Translations under genes and position numbers: made by a program
Shown here: positions 2,173-39,076 of the stretch, piece after piece
Layout: each line of letters starts with the position of its first letter
Numbering within the stretch: the first letter of the stretch is position 1
Source: Acinetobacter lwoffii
Lineage (GTDB): Bacteria; Pseudomonadota; Gammaproteobacteria; Pseudomonadales; Moraxellaceae
NCBI RefSeq assembly: GCF_019343495.1
Contig: NZ_CP072551.1
Coordinates: forward strand, 1-64,000
Direction: 5' to 3'
Length of the DNA stretch: 64,000 nt
Notes under the pieces: generated by a model
Seen by the model: the letters and a program-made list of their open reading frames with translations, nothing else
What the model was told of the DNA's origin: nothing
Database searches by the model: none

Positions 2173-3306
<1,134 letters not shown>

Positions 3307-3711: not shown

Positions 3712-3739
3712 AATTAACATCATAGAGCTTATGCGAAAG
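3712..3739. other. pdif site (XerD/XerC recombination site)
   Basis: The 28-bp layout is 11-6-11. The XerD-like half AATTAACATCA (9 of 11 to ATTTAACATAA) is followed by spacer TAGAGC and the XerC-like half TTATGCGAAAG (9 of 11 to TTATGCGAAGT). Orientation is D then C, left to right. Such sites move gene modules between Acinetobacter plasmids. It bounds the frmR-adhC-fghA block on its right; a left partner would have lain where the IS3 element now is, or further out. Confidence 0.75.
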
Positions 3740-9841: not shown

Positions 9842-10677
9842 TCAGTGAATCCAGTGAGTGCTCATAAATGATAAAGATAGTACTAAATTAAAGAACAGAG
9901 GAAAATTAAAAACAAGGTACGATCAGTAAAAAGATGCATTCCTTTGTTTTAATGAGAATGTTTAGCAGCATGATTAATACGTGATTCTGAGAGAATATCG
10001 TTGTCCATTCATAATGTTATCATTTATGCAAAAAGAATAGACTAAATTTGTCTAGGAGAGTGGTGACGGTTCAATCTAACTAAAAGGCATCTACCAAATG
10101 GCGGCTATTCGTAATAGTCGACTGAGAAAATCACGTACCTTGATTCTAAGCAGTTATTGCCCACCTCCATACTAGCACGTTTCCTGGCACAGTCCCTATC
10201 TGTACACTTGAATGCCTTTGACTATCTAAAGGTAATCTTTAAGAAAATGGGATTTATAGGGCAATATACTAAGATCTCTAGATCTGTTGAATTCGGCAAG
10301 CTCACTGAGTGTGGTTCCGTAACGTGACACTAGGTAACGTCTTGGGCTGCTGTCTGTAGGCAAAAATTAAAGCTGTGGTTTAAGGCTGGCATATTTTAAG
10401 ATTTATTTTAATTTACCACTGATGTCTGGATTTTTAGCTAATTATACCATATCCAAAAAACATATATTTACTAATAATTGCTTAGGCTATTTATTATAAA
10501 AAACAACCATATATCATTGATATATGAACATTTATTTCTATTTTTTCTATAGACATAAATTAATTAATTTTTTAGGCCCCCATACACTATCTAAGCTGAG
10601 TCAATTAAAACCTGGTATAAGTCAATGTCACATTGACTTATAGAAATAATATTTAAAAACCTTTTTTTATTTTGAAT
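9842..10677. other. Gene-free stretch between GntR and an IS5 remnant
   Basis: About 835 bases were read in all frames without a convincing gene. It probably holds the GntR promoter near its left end, and a perfect 11-bp inverted repeat (TATAAGTCAAT, 10616-10626; ATTGACTTATA, 10632-10642; loop GTCAC) close to the IS5 end. The rest looks like eroded sequence. Confidence 0.5.
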
Positions 10678-25392: not shown

Positions 25393-25420
25393 ATTTCGTA
25401 TAATCGCCATTATGTTAAAT
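25393..25420. other. pdif site, left border of the GlxA/MBL/isochorismatase cassette
   Basis: XerC arm ATTTCGTATAA (9 of 11), spacer TCGCCA, XerD arm TTATGTTAAAT (11 of 11). Orientation is C then D. The stop codon of the regulator gene (25415-25417) is inside the XerD arm, so cassette and site are tightly joined. The opposite-facing site is at 28048. Confidence 0.9.
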
Positions 25421-26386
25421 GGGTGGATTATTTTCATTAATGATCCCAAAAGCTTTTCTCCATGCCTGAGGGCTGGTGCCATATTTTTCACGAAAATTTT
25501 TTCTAAATGACACGGTATTATTAAAACCTGAAAGCTCGGTTATCTTTTCGATAGACAAGTTTGTCGTTTCTAAAAGTTCACAACTTAATCTGATTCTTTC
25601 AGTATTCAGCCAATCGACTAGGGTCATGCCTGTCGCTTTCTTAAAATGCCGTGTGAACGTCCTGCGTGTCATATGTGTCCGTTCAGCGAGGCTTTCAATA
25701 TTATGTTGTAAAGCTAAATTCTTTCTTAAAAAATCAAGTAATACATTAATTTGTGCATCTTGGCTCGATTCTGCGACTGGCTGTTCAATAAACTGAGCTT
25801 GCCCACCTTCACGGTGAGGCGGGATCACCATTACTCTAGAGACTTTATTCGCAATTCGTGCATTATAGATTTCTCGTACCAAATATAGGCAGCAGTCTAA
25901 TGCTGCACCTGTTCCAGCAGAGGTTACAATCCTTTGGTCTTCTACATACAGGGCATCATGATCAAGTTGAACCTGTGGAAACCGCTCACTGAAATCTTGT
26001 TCAGCCATCCAGTGCGTAGCTGCTTTTTTATGGTCAAGTAAACCAGCATATGCCAGTGCATAAGTTCCATAGCATAACCCTACAATTCTAATTCCAGTCT
26101 GATATGCACAATTTAGGGCATCGATAAGTACTTGTTCAGGCTCGTGATTAAAATCATCCCACCCAGGAATAATAATAAGATCCGACTCTTTAATGAGCTC
26201 GACCCCACCATCAGGGATAATCATCATAGACTGTTCTGTTGTTACGGGCTGGCCATCTATAGAAAAAATTTTCAGATCAAATAAGGGTTTATCTTCAATC
26301 TTGATATTGAAAATGATATGGGGGATAGAGAAGTGAAATGGATTTATATTGGGATAAACGAACAATCCAATCACTGGTATAGCCAT
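25415..26386 (-). CDS. GlxA-type transcription regulator (DJ-1/PfpI domain plus AraC HTH)
   Basis: The 323-residue regulator has an amidase-like DJ-1/PfpI sensor domain (about residues 1-190; ELIKESDLIIIPGWDD, GIRIVGLCYGTYALAYAG with the elbow Cys) and a C-terminal AraC double HTH (about 215-315; NIESLAERTHMTRRTFTRHF, ITELSGFNNTVSFRKNFREKYG). ATG 26386 with GAGGT upstream is chosen; the frame is open for 35 more codons. It is divergent from the secreted MBL-fold gene across paired TTGTCC sites, so it probably controls that gene and the isochorismatase. Confidence 0.88.
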   Translation of the reverse strand: MAIPVIGLFVYPNINPFHFSIPHIIFNIKIEDKPLFDLKIFSIDGQPVTTEQSMMIIPDGGVELIKESDLIIIPGWDDFNHEPEQVLIDALNCAYQTGIRIVGLCYGTYALAYAGLLDHKKAATHWMAEQDFSERFPQVQLDHDALYVEDQRIVTSAGTGAALDCCLYLVREIYNARIANKVSRVMVIPPHREGGQAQFIEQPVAESSQDAQINVLLDFLRKNLALQHNIESLAERTHMTRRTFTRHFKKATGMTLVDWLNTERIRLSCELLETTNLSIEKITELSGFNNTVSFRKNFREKYGTSPQAWRKAFGIINENNPPI

Positions 26387-26421
26387 TCGATCTACCTCTC
26401 TAAAATAATAAATATAGCATG

Positions 26422-26459
26422 TTGTCCCAATAGTTTCGATGATTGTCCTTAAGGACAAT
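26422..26459. promoter_or_regulatory. Probable AraC-type operator in the divergent promoter
   Basis: TTGTCC recurs at 26422 and 26443, exactly 21 bp apart, the usual spacing for the two HTH modules of AraC dimers. The second copy is half of a perfect 18-bp palindrome, ATTGTCCTTAAGGACAAT (26442-26459). The element lies between the regulator and the MBL-fold gene. Confidence 0.65.
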
Positions 26460-26518
26460 TTTTTTGTTTGATGATTTCTATCATGATTCAAGTATGACTA
26501 AATGATTGGATCTAGAAC

Positions 26519-27403
26519 ATGAATAAAATTTTAAGTAGCTCTGTTATTGCACTCTCTCTGGCAATGGCTTCAGTCCATTTATATGCGAATGATAAAGTGG
26601 TTCAGCGAGATACCTCTAAAGTGACGCATATACAAGAAATTCGCAATGCAACGATTAAAGTAACCTATGCTGATACGACTTTTTTAATTGACCCAATGTT
26701 TGCTAAAAAAGGGTTCTATGAAGGTTTTCCTGATACTCATCGTAGCTATTTACGGAATCCATTAGTCGATTTGCCTATTAAGCCTGAAACGATTTTAGAA
26801 GGTGTAGATGCGGTAATCGTGACCCATACACATTTAGATCATTGGGATGATGCAGCACAAGCGACTATTCCGAAAAACATGCCGTTGTTTGTACAAAATA
26901 CAGAAGACCAAAAAGTCATTCAGTCACAAGGCTTCAAAGATGTTCGTGTATTAACGCAAGCAACTTTTGAAGGGATTAAGCTCACTAAAACTGGTGGTCA
27001 ACACGGTACTGATGCCATGTACCGTATTCCTAAGCTTAAAGCTGGATTAGGCGAAGCAATGGGTGTGGTATTTGAAGCTGCGGGCCATGAAATGGTTTAT
27101 GTAGCTGGTGATACCATCTGGCGTTCTGAAGTTGATCAAGCGATTCAAACATTTAAACCTGATGTGATTGTATTGAATACAGGTAACGCCTTGGTTAATG
27201 GCTTTAAAGAATCCATTATTATGGGTAAAGAAGATACTTATCGCGCAACTCAGAAAGCACCAAATGCCAAAGTTATTGCTGTTCACATGGATGCCATTAA
27301 CCACATGTCGGTAACACGTGCTCAGCTTGCAGAATATGTAAAAGACAAAGGAATTCAAGATAAGGTTTTAATTCCTATCGATGGTGAAACACTTTCTTTC
27401 TAA
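26519..27403 (+). CDS. Exported metallo-beta-lactamase-fold hydrolase (UlaG-like)
   Basis: The 294-residue protein begins with a signal peptide (SVIALSLAMASVHLYA, cut about residue 23), so it acts in the periplasm. The zinc motif HTHLDHWD at about residue 101, GQHGTD, VAGDT and the later His in VHMDAINH are the MBL-fold metal ligands. The overall pattern is closer to the UlaG/L-ascorbate lactonase-like group than to true beta-lactamases, so the substrate is open. It is followed by the isochorismatase-like gene on the same strand (84-bp gap) inside the same pdif cassette. Confidence 0.85.
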   Translation: MNKILSSSVIALSLAMASVHLYANDKVVQRDTSKVTHIQEIRNATIKVTYADTTFLIDPMFAKKGFYEGFPDTHRSYLRNPLVDLPIKPETILEGVDAVIVTHTHLDHWDDAAQATIPKNMPLFVQNTEDQKVIQSQGFKDVRVLTQATFEGIKLTKTGGQHGTDAMYRIPKLKAGLGEAMGVVFEAAGHEMVYVAGDTIWRSEVDQAIQTFKPDVIVLNTGNALVNGFKESIIMGKEDTYRATQKAPNAKVIAVHMDAINHMSVTRAQLAEYVKDKGIQDKVLIPIDGETLSF

Positions 27404-27487
27404 AGTAACTTAAAGAAATGGAATACTTCCACTTCTTTAAAAACCTAAGTAGAACAAAACAAATATTAGTTAAGTAAAGGAACAGAT

Positions 27488-28030
27488 ATGTCAAAATCAG
27501 CTTTATTAGTTATCGACTTACAAAATGAATATCTACCTACAGGTAAATTACCATTGGTAAATATTGAACAAGCTGCTGCTAATGCAGTGAAAGTAATTGC
27601 GAAAGCCCGTCAACAGGGTACTCAAGTGATTCATGTCCAACATATTGCTGATGCTGAATCTCCTATATTTGAACCTAGCTCAAATGGTATTGAATTTCAG
27701 GACACAGTTAAGCCGCAAGAAGATGAATCTGTGATCATTAAAAATCACATCAATGCGTTCTTAAACACGAATCTCAAAGAAATTTTAGATAGCAATCAAG
27801 TGACTGAGTTAGTCGTGATTGGTGCTATGACGCATATGTGTGTTGATGCTGCTGTTCGTGCTGCTTCTGATTTTGGTTATAAGGTAAAAGTGATACATGA
27901 TGCTTGTGCAACACTAGACTTGGAATTTAATGGCGTTAAAGTACCTGCTGGTCATGTCCATGCAACATTAATGGCCGCTTTTGAATTTGCATATGCTCAA
28001 GTAATATCAACTGAAGATTATGTTAGCTAA
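27488..28030 (+). CDS. Isochorismatase-like cysteine hydrolase
   Basis: The 180-residue protein has the catalytic triad pattern: Asp in LLVIDLQNEY (residue about 10), Lys in IIKNHINAF (about 87) and the nucleophilic Cys in GAMTHMCVDAA (about 118), preceded by a cis-peptide-type turn. These proteins hydrolyse amides or imides such as nicotinamide, carbamates or peroxyureidoacrylate. No siderophore synthesis genes are nearby, so isochorismate itself is unlikely. AAGGAACAG precedes ATG 27488. The gene ends 17 bp before the pdif site. Confidence 0.88.
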   Translation: MSKSALLVIDLQNEYLPTGKLPLVNIEQAAANAVKVIAKARQQGTQVIHVQHIADAESPIFEPSSNGIEFQDTVKPQEDESVIIKNHINAFLNTNLKEILDSNQVTELVVIGAMTHMCVDAAVRAASDFGYKVKVIHDACATLDLEFNGVKVPAGHVHATLMAAFEFAYAQVISTEDYVS

Positions 28031-28047
28031 AGACTAAGATTTCCTAA

Positions 28048-28075
28048 AATTAACATAATACACGTTATTCGAAGT
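28048..28075. other. pdif site, right border of the GlxA/MBL/isochorismatase cassette
   Basis: XerD arm AATTAACATAA (10 of 11), spacer TACACG, XerC arm TTATTCGAAGT (10 of 11). Orientation is D then C, opposite to the site at 25393, as expected for the two borders of one pdif module. Confidence 0.9.
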
Positions 28076-34503: not shown

Positions 34504-36015
34504 TTAAAAGAACCCGGCTGGTTTGGTCGAATAGCTGACTAGCAAGTTTTTAGTCTGCTGATAATGATCCAGCATCATTCTGTGATTCTCACGCCCAATC
34601 CCTGACTTTTTATAACCGCCGAAAGCCGCATGCGCAGGGTAAATGTGATAACAGTTGGTCCAGACCCGACCGGCCTGAATGGCTCGACCGGCACGGTAAG
34701 AGGTATGCGCTGAGCGTGACCAGACACCGGCACCGAGTCCATAAATCGTATCATTGGCGATCTTGATCGCATCATCAAAGTCTTTAAAGGTGGTCACAGC
34801 CAATACAGGCCCGAAGATTTCATCCTGGAAGGTCTTCATGTCATTGGTGCCTTTAAAGATAGTCGGCTCAATATAGAAACCTTGACCCACTTCCTGACGT
34901 GCTTCACCACCAGTCAGGATCTGTGCGCCTTCTTCACGACCAGTGGCAATACAGCCCAGAATCTTGTCCTGCTGTTCCTGTGAGGCTTGCGCGCCAATCA
35001 TGGTGTCAGTATCCAGCGGATGCCCGGTTTTAATCCGTTTCACCCGTTCAACGGCACGCGCCAGAAATTCGTCAGCAATACTTTCCTGGATCAGCGCACG
35101 CGATGGACAGGTGCAGATTTCACCTTGGTTCAGGGCAAACATGGCAAAACCTTCCAGCGCTTTGTCCAGATAATCGTCTTCCTGATCCATAATGTCGGCA
35201 AAGAACAAGTTTGGTGATTTACCGCCAAGTTCCAGAGTCACCGGAATAATATTTTCAGTCGCATATTGCATGATCATCTGACCCACTGCGGTGGAACCGG
35301 TAAAGGCAATCTTGGAAATACGGGGATTGGTCGCCAGTGGACGGCCGACTTCGACCCCGTAGCCATTGACGATGTTCAACACGCCCGGTGGCAAAATATC
35401 CTGAATCAGTTCAGCCAGCACCAGAATGCTGACCGGAGTCTGTTCTGCAGGTTTCAACACAATGCAGTTGCCCGCAGCCAGGGCAGGTGCCAGTTTCCAG
35501 GCAGCCATCAGAATCGGAAAGTTCCACGGGATAATCTGACCCACGACGCCCAACGGCTCATGAAAATGATAAGCAATCGTATCTTCATCAATTTCGGAAA
35601 TGCCGCCTTCCTGCGCACGAATACAGCCGGCAAAATAACGGAAATGGTCAATAGCCAGCGGAATATCGGCAGCCAGCGTTTCACGGATCGGTTTGCCATT
35701 GTCCCAGGTTTCTGCCACTGCCAGCAGTTCCAGATTTTGTTCCAGACGATCGGCAATTTTCAACAGAATATTGGAGCGGGTGGTCGGCGATGCTCTGTTC
35801 CATTGTTCTTTGGCTTTGTGCGCTGCATCCATGGCCAATTCAATGTCTTCTACAGAAGAACGCGGAACCTTGGTAAAGACTTTGCCATCTACCGGAGAGA
35901 TGTTGTCAAAGTATTCACCTTTGACCGGAGCGACCCATTCGCCGCCAATAAAATTCTCGTATTGTGCTTTAAAATGAACTTTTGAATCAGGTTGATTAGG
36001 ATCGACGTAACGCAT
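34504..36015 (-). CDS. NAD-dependent aldehyde dehydrogenase (ExaC/AldB type)
   Basis: The 503-residue enzyme is full length. It oxidises aldehydes such as acetaldehyde to acids. Motifs are [17 protein letters not shown], the Glu motif LELGGKSP, the nucleotide-site FTGST, and the active-site stretch [11 protein letters not shown] with catalytic Cys. The ICTCPSR form is typical of the ExaC/acetaldehyde group. It is divergent from a GAF regulator and lies near an iron alcohol dehydrogenase, so the block probably oxidises ethanol or related alcohols to acids. Confidence 0.92.
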
Positions 36016-37903: not shown

Positions 37904-39076
37904 CTACATCGCCGCTTTAAAAATATCTACCACTTGGGCATGGTTGGCTTTACGTGGATTGGTCAACATGCAGGCATCTTTTTGTGCATTTTCCGCCATG
38001 ATGGCCAAGTCAGCTTCTTTTACATTCAATTCCGTCAGCCCAGATGGAATACCAATTGAAGCCGAAAGCTGACGAATGGCGCCAATCGCTTCATAAGCTG
38101 CTCCAGTTACGGTTAAACCTTCTGTATTCACCCCCATCAATTGGGCAATTTTGGCATAACGTTCAGGACAAGCAATCAGGTTAAATTCACAAACATGGGG
38201 GAGCAGAATTGCATTACAAACACCATGCGGCAAGTTGTAGAAGCCTCCGAGCTGATGTGCCATCGCATGCACATATCCTAAAGAGGCGTTGTTAAAGGCC
38301 ATTCCGGCAAGATATTGGGCATAGCTCATGGCATCCCGTGCTTCCAAATTATCCCCATTCGCCACTGCCAGGCTAAGCCATTCGCTGATCATGGTAATCG
38401 CCTTTTCTGCACAGGCATCAGTGATTGGATTTGCTGCCGTAGACACATAAGCTTCTATTGCATGCGTCAAGGCATCCATACCTGTTGCCGCAGTCAGCCC
38501 TGCAGGTTTGGCCAACATAAGTTTAGGGTCATCAATCGCAATGAGTGGTGTACAACGCCAATCTACAATCGCCATTTTCACATGGGTATCGGTATTGGTA
38601 ATGATACAGAAACGTGTCATCTCCGAAGCTGTCCCTGCCGTGGTATTGATTGCAATCAGTGGTGTCATCGGGACGGTACTTTTATCAATCCCTTCATAAT
38701 CACGGATATGTCCGCCACCTGCAGTGACTAGGCCAATGCCTTTGGAACAGTCATGTGATGAACCCCCACCTAACGATACAATAAAATCACAGGCATTTTC
38801 ATTATAAGCTGTAACTCCATGATGCACGTTAATATCAGTTGGATTGGGTTCCGCGCCTGAGAAAATATAACTGTCAACACCCGCCTCTTTCAAATAATTT
38901 GCAATCTCATCTGCAACACCAAATTTAAACAGCCCCGCATCAGTTACAATCAGCGCTTTCTTGGCACCTAAATTTTGTGCTTTTATCCCGATTTCTTTAG
39001 CACAGCCCGGACCAAAAAGTGAAACACAGGGAATATAAAAACCGTTAGTTTGATCTGAAATTTTTTTAAAAGCCAT
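37904..39076 (-). CDS. Iron-containing (group III) alcohol dehydrogenase
   Basis: The 390-residue enzyme has the NAD-binding GGGSSHDCSKGIG and the metal-ligand region with HAIEAYVS, HAMAHQLGGFYNLPHG and a further His. It interconverts alcohols and aldehydes with NAD(H). With the nearby aldehyde dehydrogenase it would form an alcohol-to-acid route. Two CCTACCAA repeats lie in its promoter region. It has its own transcription unit on the minus strand. Confidence 0.9.
   Translation of the reverse strand: MAFKKISDQTNGFYIPCVSLFGPGCAKEIGIKAQNLGAKKALIVTDAGLFKFGVADEIANYLKEAGVDSYIFSGAEPNPTDINVHHGVTAYNENACDFIVSLGGGSSHDCSKGIGLVTAGGGHIRDYEGIDKSTVPMTPLIAINTTAGTASEMTRFCIITNTDTHVKMAIVDWRCTPLIAIDDPKLMLAKPAGLTAATGMDALTHAIEAYVSTAANPITDACAEKAITMISEWLSLAVANGDNLEARDAMSYAQYLAGMAFNNASLGYVHAMAHQLGGFYNLPHGVCNAILLPHVCEFNLIACPERYAKIAQLMGVNTEGLTVTGAAYEAIGAIRQLSASIGIPSGLTELNVKEADLAIMAENAQKDACMLTNPRKANHAQVVDIFKAAM

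Follow-up and report, generated by a model that had tools for sequence, protein, structure and literature searches.

Gene content of the locus

The window analyzed here is a stretch of 64,000 nucleotides from Acinetobacter lwoffii (GCF_019343495.1, contig NZ_CP072551.1, positions 1 to 64,000, forward strand). It contained 2 inversely oriented pdif sites that enclosed 3 genes, with the gene for a regulator facing away from the gene for an MBL-fold hydrolase, which was followed by the gene for a cysteine hydrolase:

25393 to 25420, plus strand: left pdif site in C/D orientation, XerC arm outside and XerD arm inside
25415 to 26386, minus strand: saxC-like GlxA/AraC regulator of 323 aa, with a DJ-1/PfpI sensor domain and an AraC DNA-binding domain
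26422 to 26463, no strand: predicted regulator operator, with two TTGTCC half-sites 21 bp apart and an inverted GGACAA
26519 to 27403, plus strand: saxA-like MBL-fold hydrolase, predicted isothiocyanate hydrolase, probably exported
27409 to 27441, no strand: hairpin between the 2 hydrolase genes (z -2.6)
27488 to 28030, plus strand: saxB-like isochorismatase-family cysteine hydrolase, with D10, K85 and C118 conserved
28048 to 28075, minus strand: right pdif site in D/C orientation, XerD arm inside

The left site was ATTTCGTATAA-TCGCCA-TTATGTTAAAT and the right site, read on the minus strand, was ACTTCGAATAA-CGTGTA-TTATGTTAATT, which confirmed the enclosing pair of sites proposed in an earlier sequence-only reading. 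With up to 3 mismatches allowed, the pdif pattern matched 3 times in the window, the third match being located at position 3712, and had a mean of 0.00 matches in 100 dinucleotide shuffles of the window.

The regulator most likely starts with the ATG at 26386, compared to which the TTG at 26491 was disfavoured, and its stop codon falls within the XerD arm of the left pdif site. The HTH_18 and DJ-1_PfpI families were identified in this protein, in agreement with the DJ-1/AraC type previously assigned to it, while the second and third proteins belonged to the Lactamase_B_2 and Isochorismatase families. Purifying selection acts on all 3 genes, for which the median dN/dS values were 0.087, 0.094 and 0.18, as calculated from 28, 26 and 28 of the 28 distinct copies. 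The hydrolase gene was not intact in 2 of these copies (L012 and L020).

Boundaries and mobility of the module

In total, 126 plasmid records matched the module, 60 of which were listed. Large coverage was obtained for 22 copies, and the 14 examined were mainly complete, leaving out H9, H12, H15, H16, H18, H20, H21 and H22, some of which were truncated or split by insertions. Both sides were bordered by pdif sites in 13 of the 14, a proportion that is not an unbiased rate because mainly complete copies were chosen. The query used in this search had been cut at the sites, so the ends of its matches are uninformative about the boundaries. With a 14-kb query, 5 of the 14 copies lost homology no more than 12 bp from the left site and 7 no more than 12 bp from the right site, 3 of them (L011, L015 and L019) at both sites. 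In the remaining copies the match extended into adjoining sequence that the window has as well, and the right end of L017 was interrupted by IS1006.

In 31 copies (28 distinct, with unique junctions numbering 27 on the left and 23 on the right), the 30 bp beyond either site had a mean column identity of 0.39, compared to 0.65 on the module side of the left site and 0.90 on the module side of the right site, and the variation in the pdif spacers was clustered beside the XerC arm. The flanks, 30 on each side, fell into 12 classes to the left, the largest of which contained 15 flanks, and 16 classes to the right. The stop codon of the regulator gene was placed inside the left site by script in 27 of the 28 distinct copies; for the 28th, L018, the script picked up a second, duplicate copy of the site, and the gene as annotated ends inside the site.

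The divergence of the module genes was also compared with that of rpoB in 13 comparisons. In G167, which was matched to A. towneri, rpoB was only 87.2% identical, whereas the genes for the regulator and the cysteine hydrolase were 99.8% and 98.7% identical. Conversely, the near relative G054 showed 98.7% identity for rpoB versus 95.1% for the regulator. The pdif-bounded unit thus crosses species lines.

The trio would not be expected to behave in this manner if it were a vertically inherited chromosomal operon next to which the pdif sites are incidental. It is true that pdif-like sites on both sides were found at 18 of the 21 Acinetobacter loci with a complete trio and not at L045, L046 and L051, so that delimitation of the trio by the sites holds for the former and not for these 3 loci, and that none of the 8 two-gene loci with regulator and hydrolase had clear pdif sites on both sides. 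Nevertheless, the site-bounded copies, the flank classes and the species discordance contradict such an explanation. Furthermore, the 12 loci for which wider flanks were inspected had almost no neighbors in common: a shared neighborhood was seen only in the related pair L069 and L071, and 2 single-gene families recurred at different positions (L065/L066 and L064/L066), which speaks against a fixed locus with conserved neighbors. We therefore consider inheritance as a chromosomal operon extremely improbable, and the earlier proposal of a cassette that moves as a self-contained, regulated unit is upheld by the pdif-bounded plasmid copies and the diversity of flank classes.

D modules have been defined by internal XerD arms in the available text of PMC13141974. 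The trio is bounded by inverse sites consisting of XerC arm, 6 bp and XerD arm, with the XerD arms internal and with breakpoints at the sites in varied surroundings, and it is thus a D module. The pdif order in contig C3 was D/C, C/D, D/C, D/C, D/C, and the C/D alternation was thereby not strict; fused modules are known exceptions to the alternation, according to the same partial source (PMC13141974). Catalysis by Xer recombinases presumably underlies the movement, in which exchange by XerC/XerD between pdif sites whose spacers match would transfer the complete unit among plasmids and chromosomes. Both spacers of the trio's sites also occur in the module at C1:638041-638697.

A conserved 42-bp intergenic element

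Among the best 80 of 346 relatives, 71 had, like the window, a divergent AraC-type regulator within 600 bp. A 42-bp element, newly described here, was present between the divergent genes in all 72 regions tested (these 71 loci and L029; the other 9 loci had no such regulator within 600 bp). The seed of the position weight matrix was picked by eye, and each region was scored by leave-one-out against 60 mononucleotide shuffles and again against 200 dinucleotide shuffles; each scored above all shuffles, with a lowest z of 9.4 in the dinucleotide test. The search did not recover the element in the regions from Moraxella and Paracoccus (L010 and L006), where the scores were negative and at the level of the shuffles and where the cysteine hydrolase gene adjoins the regulator gene.

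The strict Acinetobacter form occurred once per genome in 29 genomes, 96 to 97 bp upstream of the hydrolase gene, and was absent from the other 146 Acinetobacter genomes. Among the 32 genomes that encode a hydrolase of at least 75% identity, 3 (G087, G106 and G159) had no match to the strict pattern. No second site was detected in the 29 Acinetobacter or in 8 Pseudomonas genomes. The patterns were derived from the same loci, so that presence there is by construction and the informative result is the lack of second or outside sites. Because there is a single strict site in each of the 29 genomes and none in the 146 others, the element is probably the operator of a regulator with one target.

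Predicted functions of the two hydrolases

The trio appears to match closely the known bacterial system for the breakdown of isothiocyanates (mustard oils). The zinc hydrolase aligned with the isothiocyanate hydrolase SaxA (6BRM) over residues 38 to 294 with an E-value of 9.2e-76, and scored even higher against 3RPC, a "possible metal-dependent hydrolase" (8.9e-84). The motifs HTHLDHWD, GQHG and GDT and a late His were kept, and H103, H105, D107, H108, H162, D198 and H256 were invariant across 6 aligned proteins. From general features of the MBL family, we take the residues of HxHxDH, GQHG, GDT and the late His to be candidate metal ligands. The MBL fold previously assigned to this protein was recovered, while its description as secreted depends on how the N-terminus is read; 64 of the best 80 of 346 relatives were flagged by a crude rule on hydrophobicity, and the protein is probably exported.

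The zinc hydrolase and the regulator were 64% and 43% identical to their counterparts at the P. viridiflava locus L098. A saxCAB-like gene order was seen together with the 42-bp element at P. viridiflava and P. brassicacearum loci, and both species are reported, in sources available in part, to degrade isothiocyanates in a SaxA-linked manner. Strain 3D9 of P. viridiflava has saxC, saxA and saxB, and isothiocyanate raises saxA and saxB slightly (PMC12903958, available text). The isothiocyanate chemistry of SaxA has been described, and catalytic properties were preserved in all 5 SaxA clusters, according to the accessible part of PMC7036374. Family membership makes isothiocyanates a likelier substrate class than the lactones, imides and beta-lactams suggested before.

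The same mobile module could instead contain a zinc hydrolase acting on another class, such as isocyanates, other heterocumulenes, lactones or amides, with the likeness to SaxA reflecting ancestry. MBL-fold enzymes in general switch substrate readily, the best solved match has no assigned function, and the carriers among the 60 of 126 records listed came from faeces, sewage, soil, permafrost and a hospital dispenser, the hosts being mostly not Brassica-associated. However, the similarity to SaxA is full-length with every candidate metal ligand kept, and the shared gene order and element in reported isothiocyanate degraders and the preserved catalysis across the SaxA clusters also argue against another class, which we regard as unlikely. 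Isothiocyanates are the likely substrates as judged from sequence relationships.

For the third protein, relatives with assigned functions were RutB, biuret and triuret hydrolase and N-carbamoylsarcosine amidase, while the listings for its closest relatives, 3LQY and 4H17, give no assigned function. It was 59% identical to the products of the putative saxB genes downstream at the P. viridiflava loci L098 and L105, and 28% identical to the third gene product of the P. syringae plasmid pB76-81. Within the best 80 of 346 loci, a third gene with at least 50% identity was located directly downstream in 28, elsewhere in the stretch in 5 and was absent from the stretch in 47. The isochorismatase-type enzyme is present as proposed earlier, but a strict two-step pathway is unsupported because of these 47 loci.

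The assigned relatives act on ureido or amide groups to release nitrogen, as would suit a module for nutrient scavenging in which isothiocyanates or thiocarbamoyl compounds serve as nitrogen or sulfur source and the cysteine hydrolase performs the key step. No transporter or amine-oxidising gene lies between the 2 pdif sites, however, and we find this use quite improbable.

Discussion

We consider it likely that the locus is a D-type pdif module with a saxCAB-like isothiocyanate detoxification operon as cargo. The boundaries, the interspecies transfer, the protein families and the conservation of their candidate catalytic residues, the 42-bp element and the purifying selection were computed, and an isothiocyanate is the putative substrate of the zinc hydrolase. 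Isothiocyanates would enter the cell envelope and be sensed by the DJ-1-type domain of the regulator, perhaps via reaction with Cys105, to which a Trp is aligned in the nearest solved sensor, 3GRA. With isothiocyanates as the presumed inducer and activation as the presumed direction of regulation, the regulator would activate the divergent promoter of the hydrolase gene from a single intergenic operator. The exported zinc hydrolase would convert R-N=C=S and H2O to an amine and carbonyl sulfide, and the cytosolic cysteine hydrolase may handle a related amide-like or thiocarbamoyl product.

Like other Acinetobacter D-type dif modules, the module has inverse pdif sites with the XerD arms inside and varied neighbors, and it occurs on plasmids and on chromosomes, frequently next to toxin-antitoxin genes, but its cargo is a three-gene saxCAB-like operon that includes a dedicated regulator and a predicted operator. 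The 7 modules named for permafrost strains in the available text of PMC6449649 do not include it, although pALWED2.1, a plasmid of a permafrost strain in that study, carries it. The cysteine hydrolase dif module of pAcsw19-3 is likewise a pdif module with an isochorismatase-family gene (PMC7693717, available text), but that protein is only 25% identical, and the 16 kb of pAcsw19-3 examined had no nucleotide match to the regulator or hydrolase gene.

With Pseudomonas saxCAB, which is linked to survival in Arabidopsis extracts, the module shares the divergent AraC-type regulator, the SaxA-family hydrolase, the downstream hydrolase gene and the 42-bp element. In contrast, the Acinetobacter module lacks the saxF/D/G efflux genes, and no pdif-like site (up to 3 mismatches) was found in pB76-81 or the 65 non-Acinetobacter loci. 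SaxA of Pectobacterium (6BRM) and the saxA plasmid found in gut bacteria of the cabbage root fly correspond in family and probably in reaction, but the 6BRM chain and a close E. coli plasmid relative (L005:2131-2910) lack an export signal and start directly with the fold, and the available text of PMC5404199 describes tra genes and conjugation for the plasmids of the gut bacteria and does not present them as pdif modules.

Plasmid-borne saxA in Acinetobacter is already in print, as indicated by citing papers, themselves available in part, and no description of a sax pdif module was found in the literature searched. Nor did that literature reveal overlap between work on pdif, mostly concerned with antibiotic resistance, and work on sax genes, concerned with overcoming Brassica mustard oils, which are joined here. 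A formerly unassigned cassette thereby gains a testable substrate and inducer and a predicted DNA site for its regulator, and a site-specific shuffling system is seen to carry a complete, regulated detoxification operon. Since a sax-like trio is located in a shared Acinetobacter cassette, plant-toxin defence appears to travel between plasmid and chromosome as a ready-made, self-regulated unit. A bolder version, which we hold to be possible but doubtful, is that a defence against plant chemicals has been domesticated as an Acinetobacter Xer cassette with a single dedicated operator and an isonitrile hydratase-like sensor that traps the isothiocyanate carbon on Cys105. If true, pdif modules would be a general route for the spread of tolerance to natural toxins, older than the use of antibiotics.

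Module boundaries and sites

The sequence-only reading had described two pdif sites, three genes and a close fit between them, all of which were borne out on re-reading the window. The 28-bp pdif pattern (up to 3 mismatches) gave 3 matches in the window, against an average of 0.00 over 100 shuffled sequences. The regulator gene, whose most likely start codon is the ATG at 26386, ends with a stop codon within the XerD arm of the left pdif site. A script located the regulator stop inside the left site for 27 of the 28 distinct copies; for the remaining one (L018), the annotation places it there too.

A megablast search with the unit returned 126 plasmid records and, among the matches listed, 15 contained at least 80% of it in one place. 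Presence from pdif to pdif in plasmids, the check proposed earlier, was confirmed, with both sites in 13 of the 14 records examined. In L017, the module is truncated on its right side by IS1006. When a 14-kb query was used, homology ended no more than 12 bp from the left site in 5 of 14 copies and from the right site in 7, including L011, L015 and L019 where it ended at both; in the remaining copies it extended past the sites into neighbours common to the window. Junctions were aligned for 31 copies, three of them further records of a plasmid or strain already in the set. Column identity averaged 0.39 over the 30 bp outside either site; inside, it averaged 0.90 on the right and 0.65 on the left, where a length variant lowers the value. 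The spacer bases adjoining the XerC arm were variable, those adjoining the XerD arm far less so. With 30 flanks on each side, 12 classes were distinguished on the left and 16 on the right.

The XerD arms of both sites lie on the inner side, which makes the unit a D module in the scheme defined in the available part of PMC13141974, which also states that recombining sites have identical or nearly identical spacers. The host assembly contained 32 pdif-like sites, among them a pair on the largest contig (C1:638041-638697) that delimits a D module sharing both spacers with this one (left TCGCCA, right CGTGTA). About 100 bp past a pdif site on this contig is a transposase-like gene of 445 aa (L022:1640-2977; G000 C1, 638797-640134), possibly one of the insertion sequences targeting pdif that PMC10132070 describes.

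Identity of the hydrolase and the third gene

Among solved structures, the hydrolase matched 3RPC ("possible metal-dependent hydrolase", E 8.9e-84) and SaxA (6BRM, E 9.2e-76), and all candidate metal ligands were kept in six aligned relatives. The third protein, a cysteine hydrolase, has kept D10, K85 and C118, which we take to be catalytic. The same gene layout was found in the P. syringae plasmid pB76-81 (identity 58% for the regulator, 55% for the hydrolase, 28% for the third gene), and identities to P. viridiflava L098 were 43%, 64% and 59%, respectively. Within the best 80 of 346 relatives, a divergent regulator was located no more than 600 bp away in 71; a third-gene relative (at least 50%) was directly downstream in 28, elsewhere in 5 and absent from the stretch examined in 47. 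When up to 3 mismatches were allowed, no pdif-like site was seen at any of the 65 non-Acinetobacter loci among the matches listed.

According to the available portions of the sources, the sax genes include the regulator saxC, the hydrolase saxA and the uncharacterised saxB, and 4-methylsulfinylbutyl isothiocyanate slightly raised saxA and saxB, not saxC, in P. viridiflava (PMC12903958); SaxA yields an amine and O=C=S (PMC7036374). Four gut isolates, one an Acinetobacter, were reported to degrade isothiocyanate and to carry near-identical plasmids, with saxA on one plasmid (PMC5404199); a saxA plasmid was credited to all four (PMC12710311, accessible part).

The gap separating the two hydrolase genes contains a hairpin (27409-27441) that scored better than shuffles (z -2.6); an inverted repeat was present there in several other copies, and the structure could tune third-gene expression.

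Regulator and predicted operator

The regulator was closest to the FtrA model, yet below its cut-off (307.6 vs 425 bits). The nearest solved regulator sensor, 3GRA, has a Trp aligned with Cys105, and the nearest solved enzymes are isonitrile hydratases, whose presumably catalytic SVCTG cysteine aligns with Cys105. This residue was kept in 77 of 78 aligned regulators from the best 80 of 346 relatives, but favours a covalent sensor only weakly because a Cys at this position is common across the wider GlxA group.

In the intergenic region, an inverted GGACAA comes after the pair TTGTCC-15 bp-TTGTCC. The half-sites of this pair have a 21-bp spacing, and a spacing of about 21 bp is frequent among AraC-family repeats. 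Extended to other genera, the 42-bp element (26422-26463) has the consensus TTGGCCCAATnnTTTCGAnnATTGTCnTTCAGGCCAATnTTn. In leave-one-out scoring it beat all of 200 dinucleotide shuffles per region in 72 of 72 regions (lowest z 9.4), and in the window it scored 47.8 vs 4.8 for the next best site. The strict Acinetobacter pattern (up to 3 mismatches) occurred once per genome in 29 genomes, all hydrolase carriers, 96-97 bp before the hydrolase start by manual comparison, and was absent from the other 146 Acinetobacter genomes, 3 of which carry the hydrolase at 75% identity or more. The Pseudomonas form occurred once per genome in 8 genomes. As the patterns were derived from the same loci, the informative part is that there were no second sites. 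The element was not found in the Moraxella (L010) or Paracoccus (L006) region. Judged by these sequences, the regulator with its predicted operator is probably a one-target regulator, fitting a movable unit.

Distribution and transfer in Acinetobacter

The hydrolase was identified in 40 of 175 Acinetobacter genomes (E <= 1e-20; identity at least 75% in 32, about 50% in 2 and about 31% in 6) and the third gene in 28 (E <= 1e-40). G026, G137 and G118 contained the cysteine hydrolase (85%, 89% and 55% identity) with no hydrolase match at E <= 1e-20. All three genes were complete in 21 of the 30 loci read; another of the 30 (L049) is truncated by its contig end. Pdif-like sites flanked both sides of 18 of these 21, counting two whose left site is weak, at 3 and 4 mismatches respectively, and not of L045, L046 and L051; L051 retains the left XerD arm and part of the right site, as if its sites had decayed. 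No flanking pdif was found at 8 loci with the regulator and hydrolase only. In wider flanks of 12 loci, a common neighbourhood was seen only for L069/L071, and two single-gene neighbour families recurred at differing positions (L065/L066 and L064/L066).

Two loci, one without pdif and the other a pdif-bounded module, contained an extra gene between the two hydrolase genes, assigned as SnoaL-like by a Pfam scan of the L061 copy:
L061:8573-9013, SnoaL-like gene
L068, 141-aa ORF at 9945, SnoaL-like gene

Identity of rpoB did not track that of the module across 13 comparisons. In G167 (matched to A. towneri L075), rpoB identity was 87.2% vs 99.8% for the regulator, 96.1% for the hydrolase and 98.7% for the cysteine hydrolase, whereas G054 (matched to A. 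lwoffii L074) had 98.7% for rpoB but 95.1% for the regulator. The G117 copy was a mosaic (cysteine hydrolase 98.3%, regulator 80.2%).

Related clusters and plasmid neighbours

On an E. coli IncHI1B plasmid (L005:1026-5780), two SaxA-family genes occur together with genes for a regulator and an MFS transporter, a few kb away from tet(B); one of the two lacks an export signal (520.6 bits to 6BRM) and the other has a signal-like N-terminus. A Moraxella osloensis plasmid (L010:3914-7703) encoded, in a row, a GlxA regulator, a cysteine hydrolase, an MBL hydrolase and a luciferase-like monooxygenase, flanked by cadmium resistance genes and mph(E)/msr(E), with one pdif-like site in the 10.5-kb stretch. 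ORF reading of the module's own plasmid gave formylglutathione hydrolase-, S-(hydroxymethyl)glutathione dehydrogenase-, aldehyde dehydrogenase- and alcohol dehydrogenase-like genes at these window positions:
1180-1950
2173-3285
34504-36015
37904-39076

Selection and decay

Median pairwise dN/dS was 0.087 for the regulator (28 copies), 0.094 for the hydrolase (26) and 0.18 for the cysteine hydrolase (28). The hydrolase gene was not intact in L012 and L020, and the broken and decayed copies show that some hosts can do without the trait.

Among the matches listed, 35 of 60 plasmid records (H23-H57), including A. baumannii pMAC, matched the right module end only, over 157-268 bp that comprise the 3' end of the cysteine hydrolase gene and, in most records, the right pdif:
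window 27808-28075, right-end match region
L194:2501-2657, right-end match region
L195:2501-2675, right-end match region
In both pMAC and pXMC5X702-13k, the matching end is part of a 670-bp D module that also contains a small, unrelated ORF, and it resembles a relic or a chimeric module end.

Overall, the module is a well-supported mobile unit of an ordinary type whose cargo is unexpected and can now be named, its substrate assignment being putative. The parts were already known, and the combination of a pdif module with sax-like cargo is new within the literature searched.
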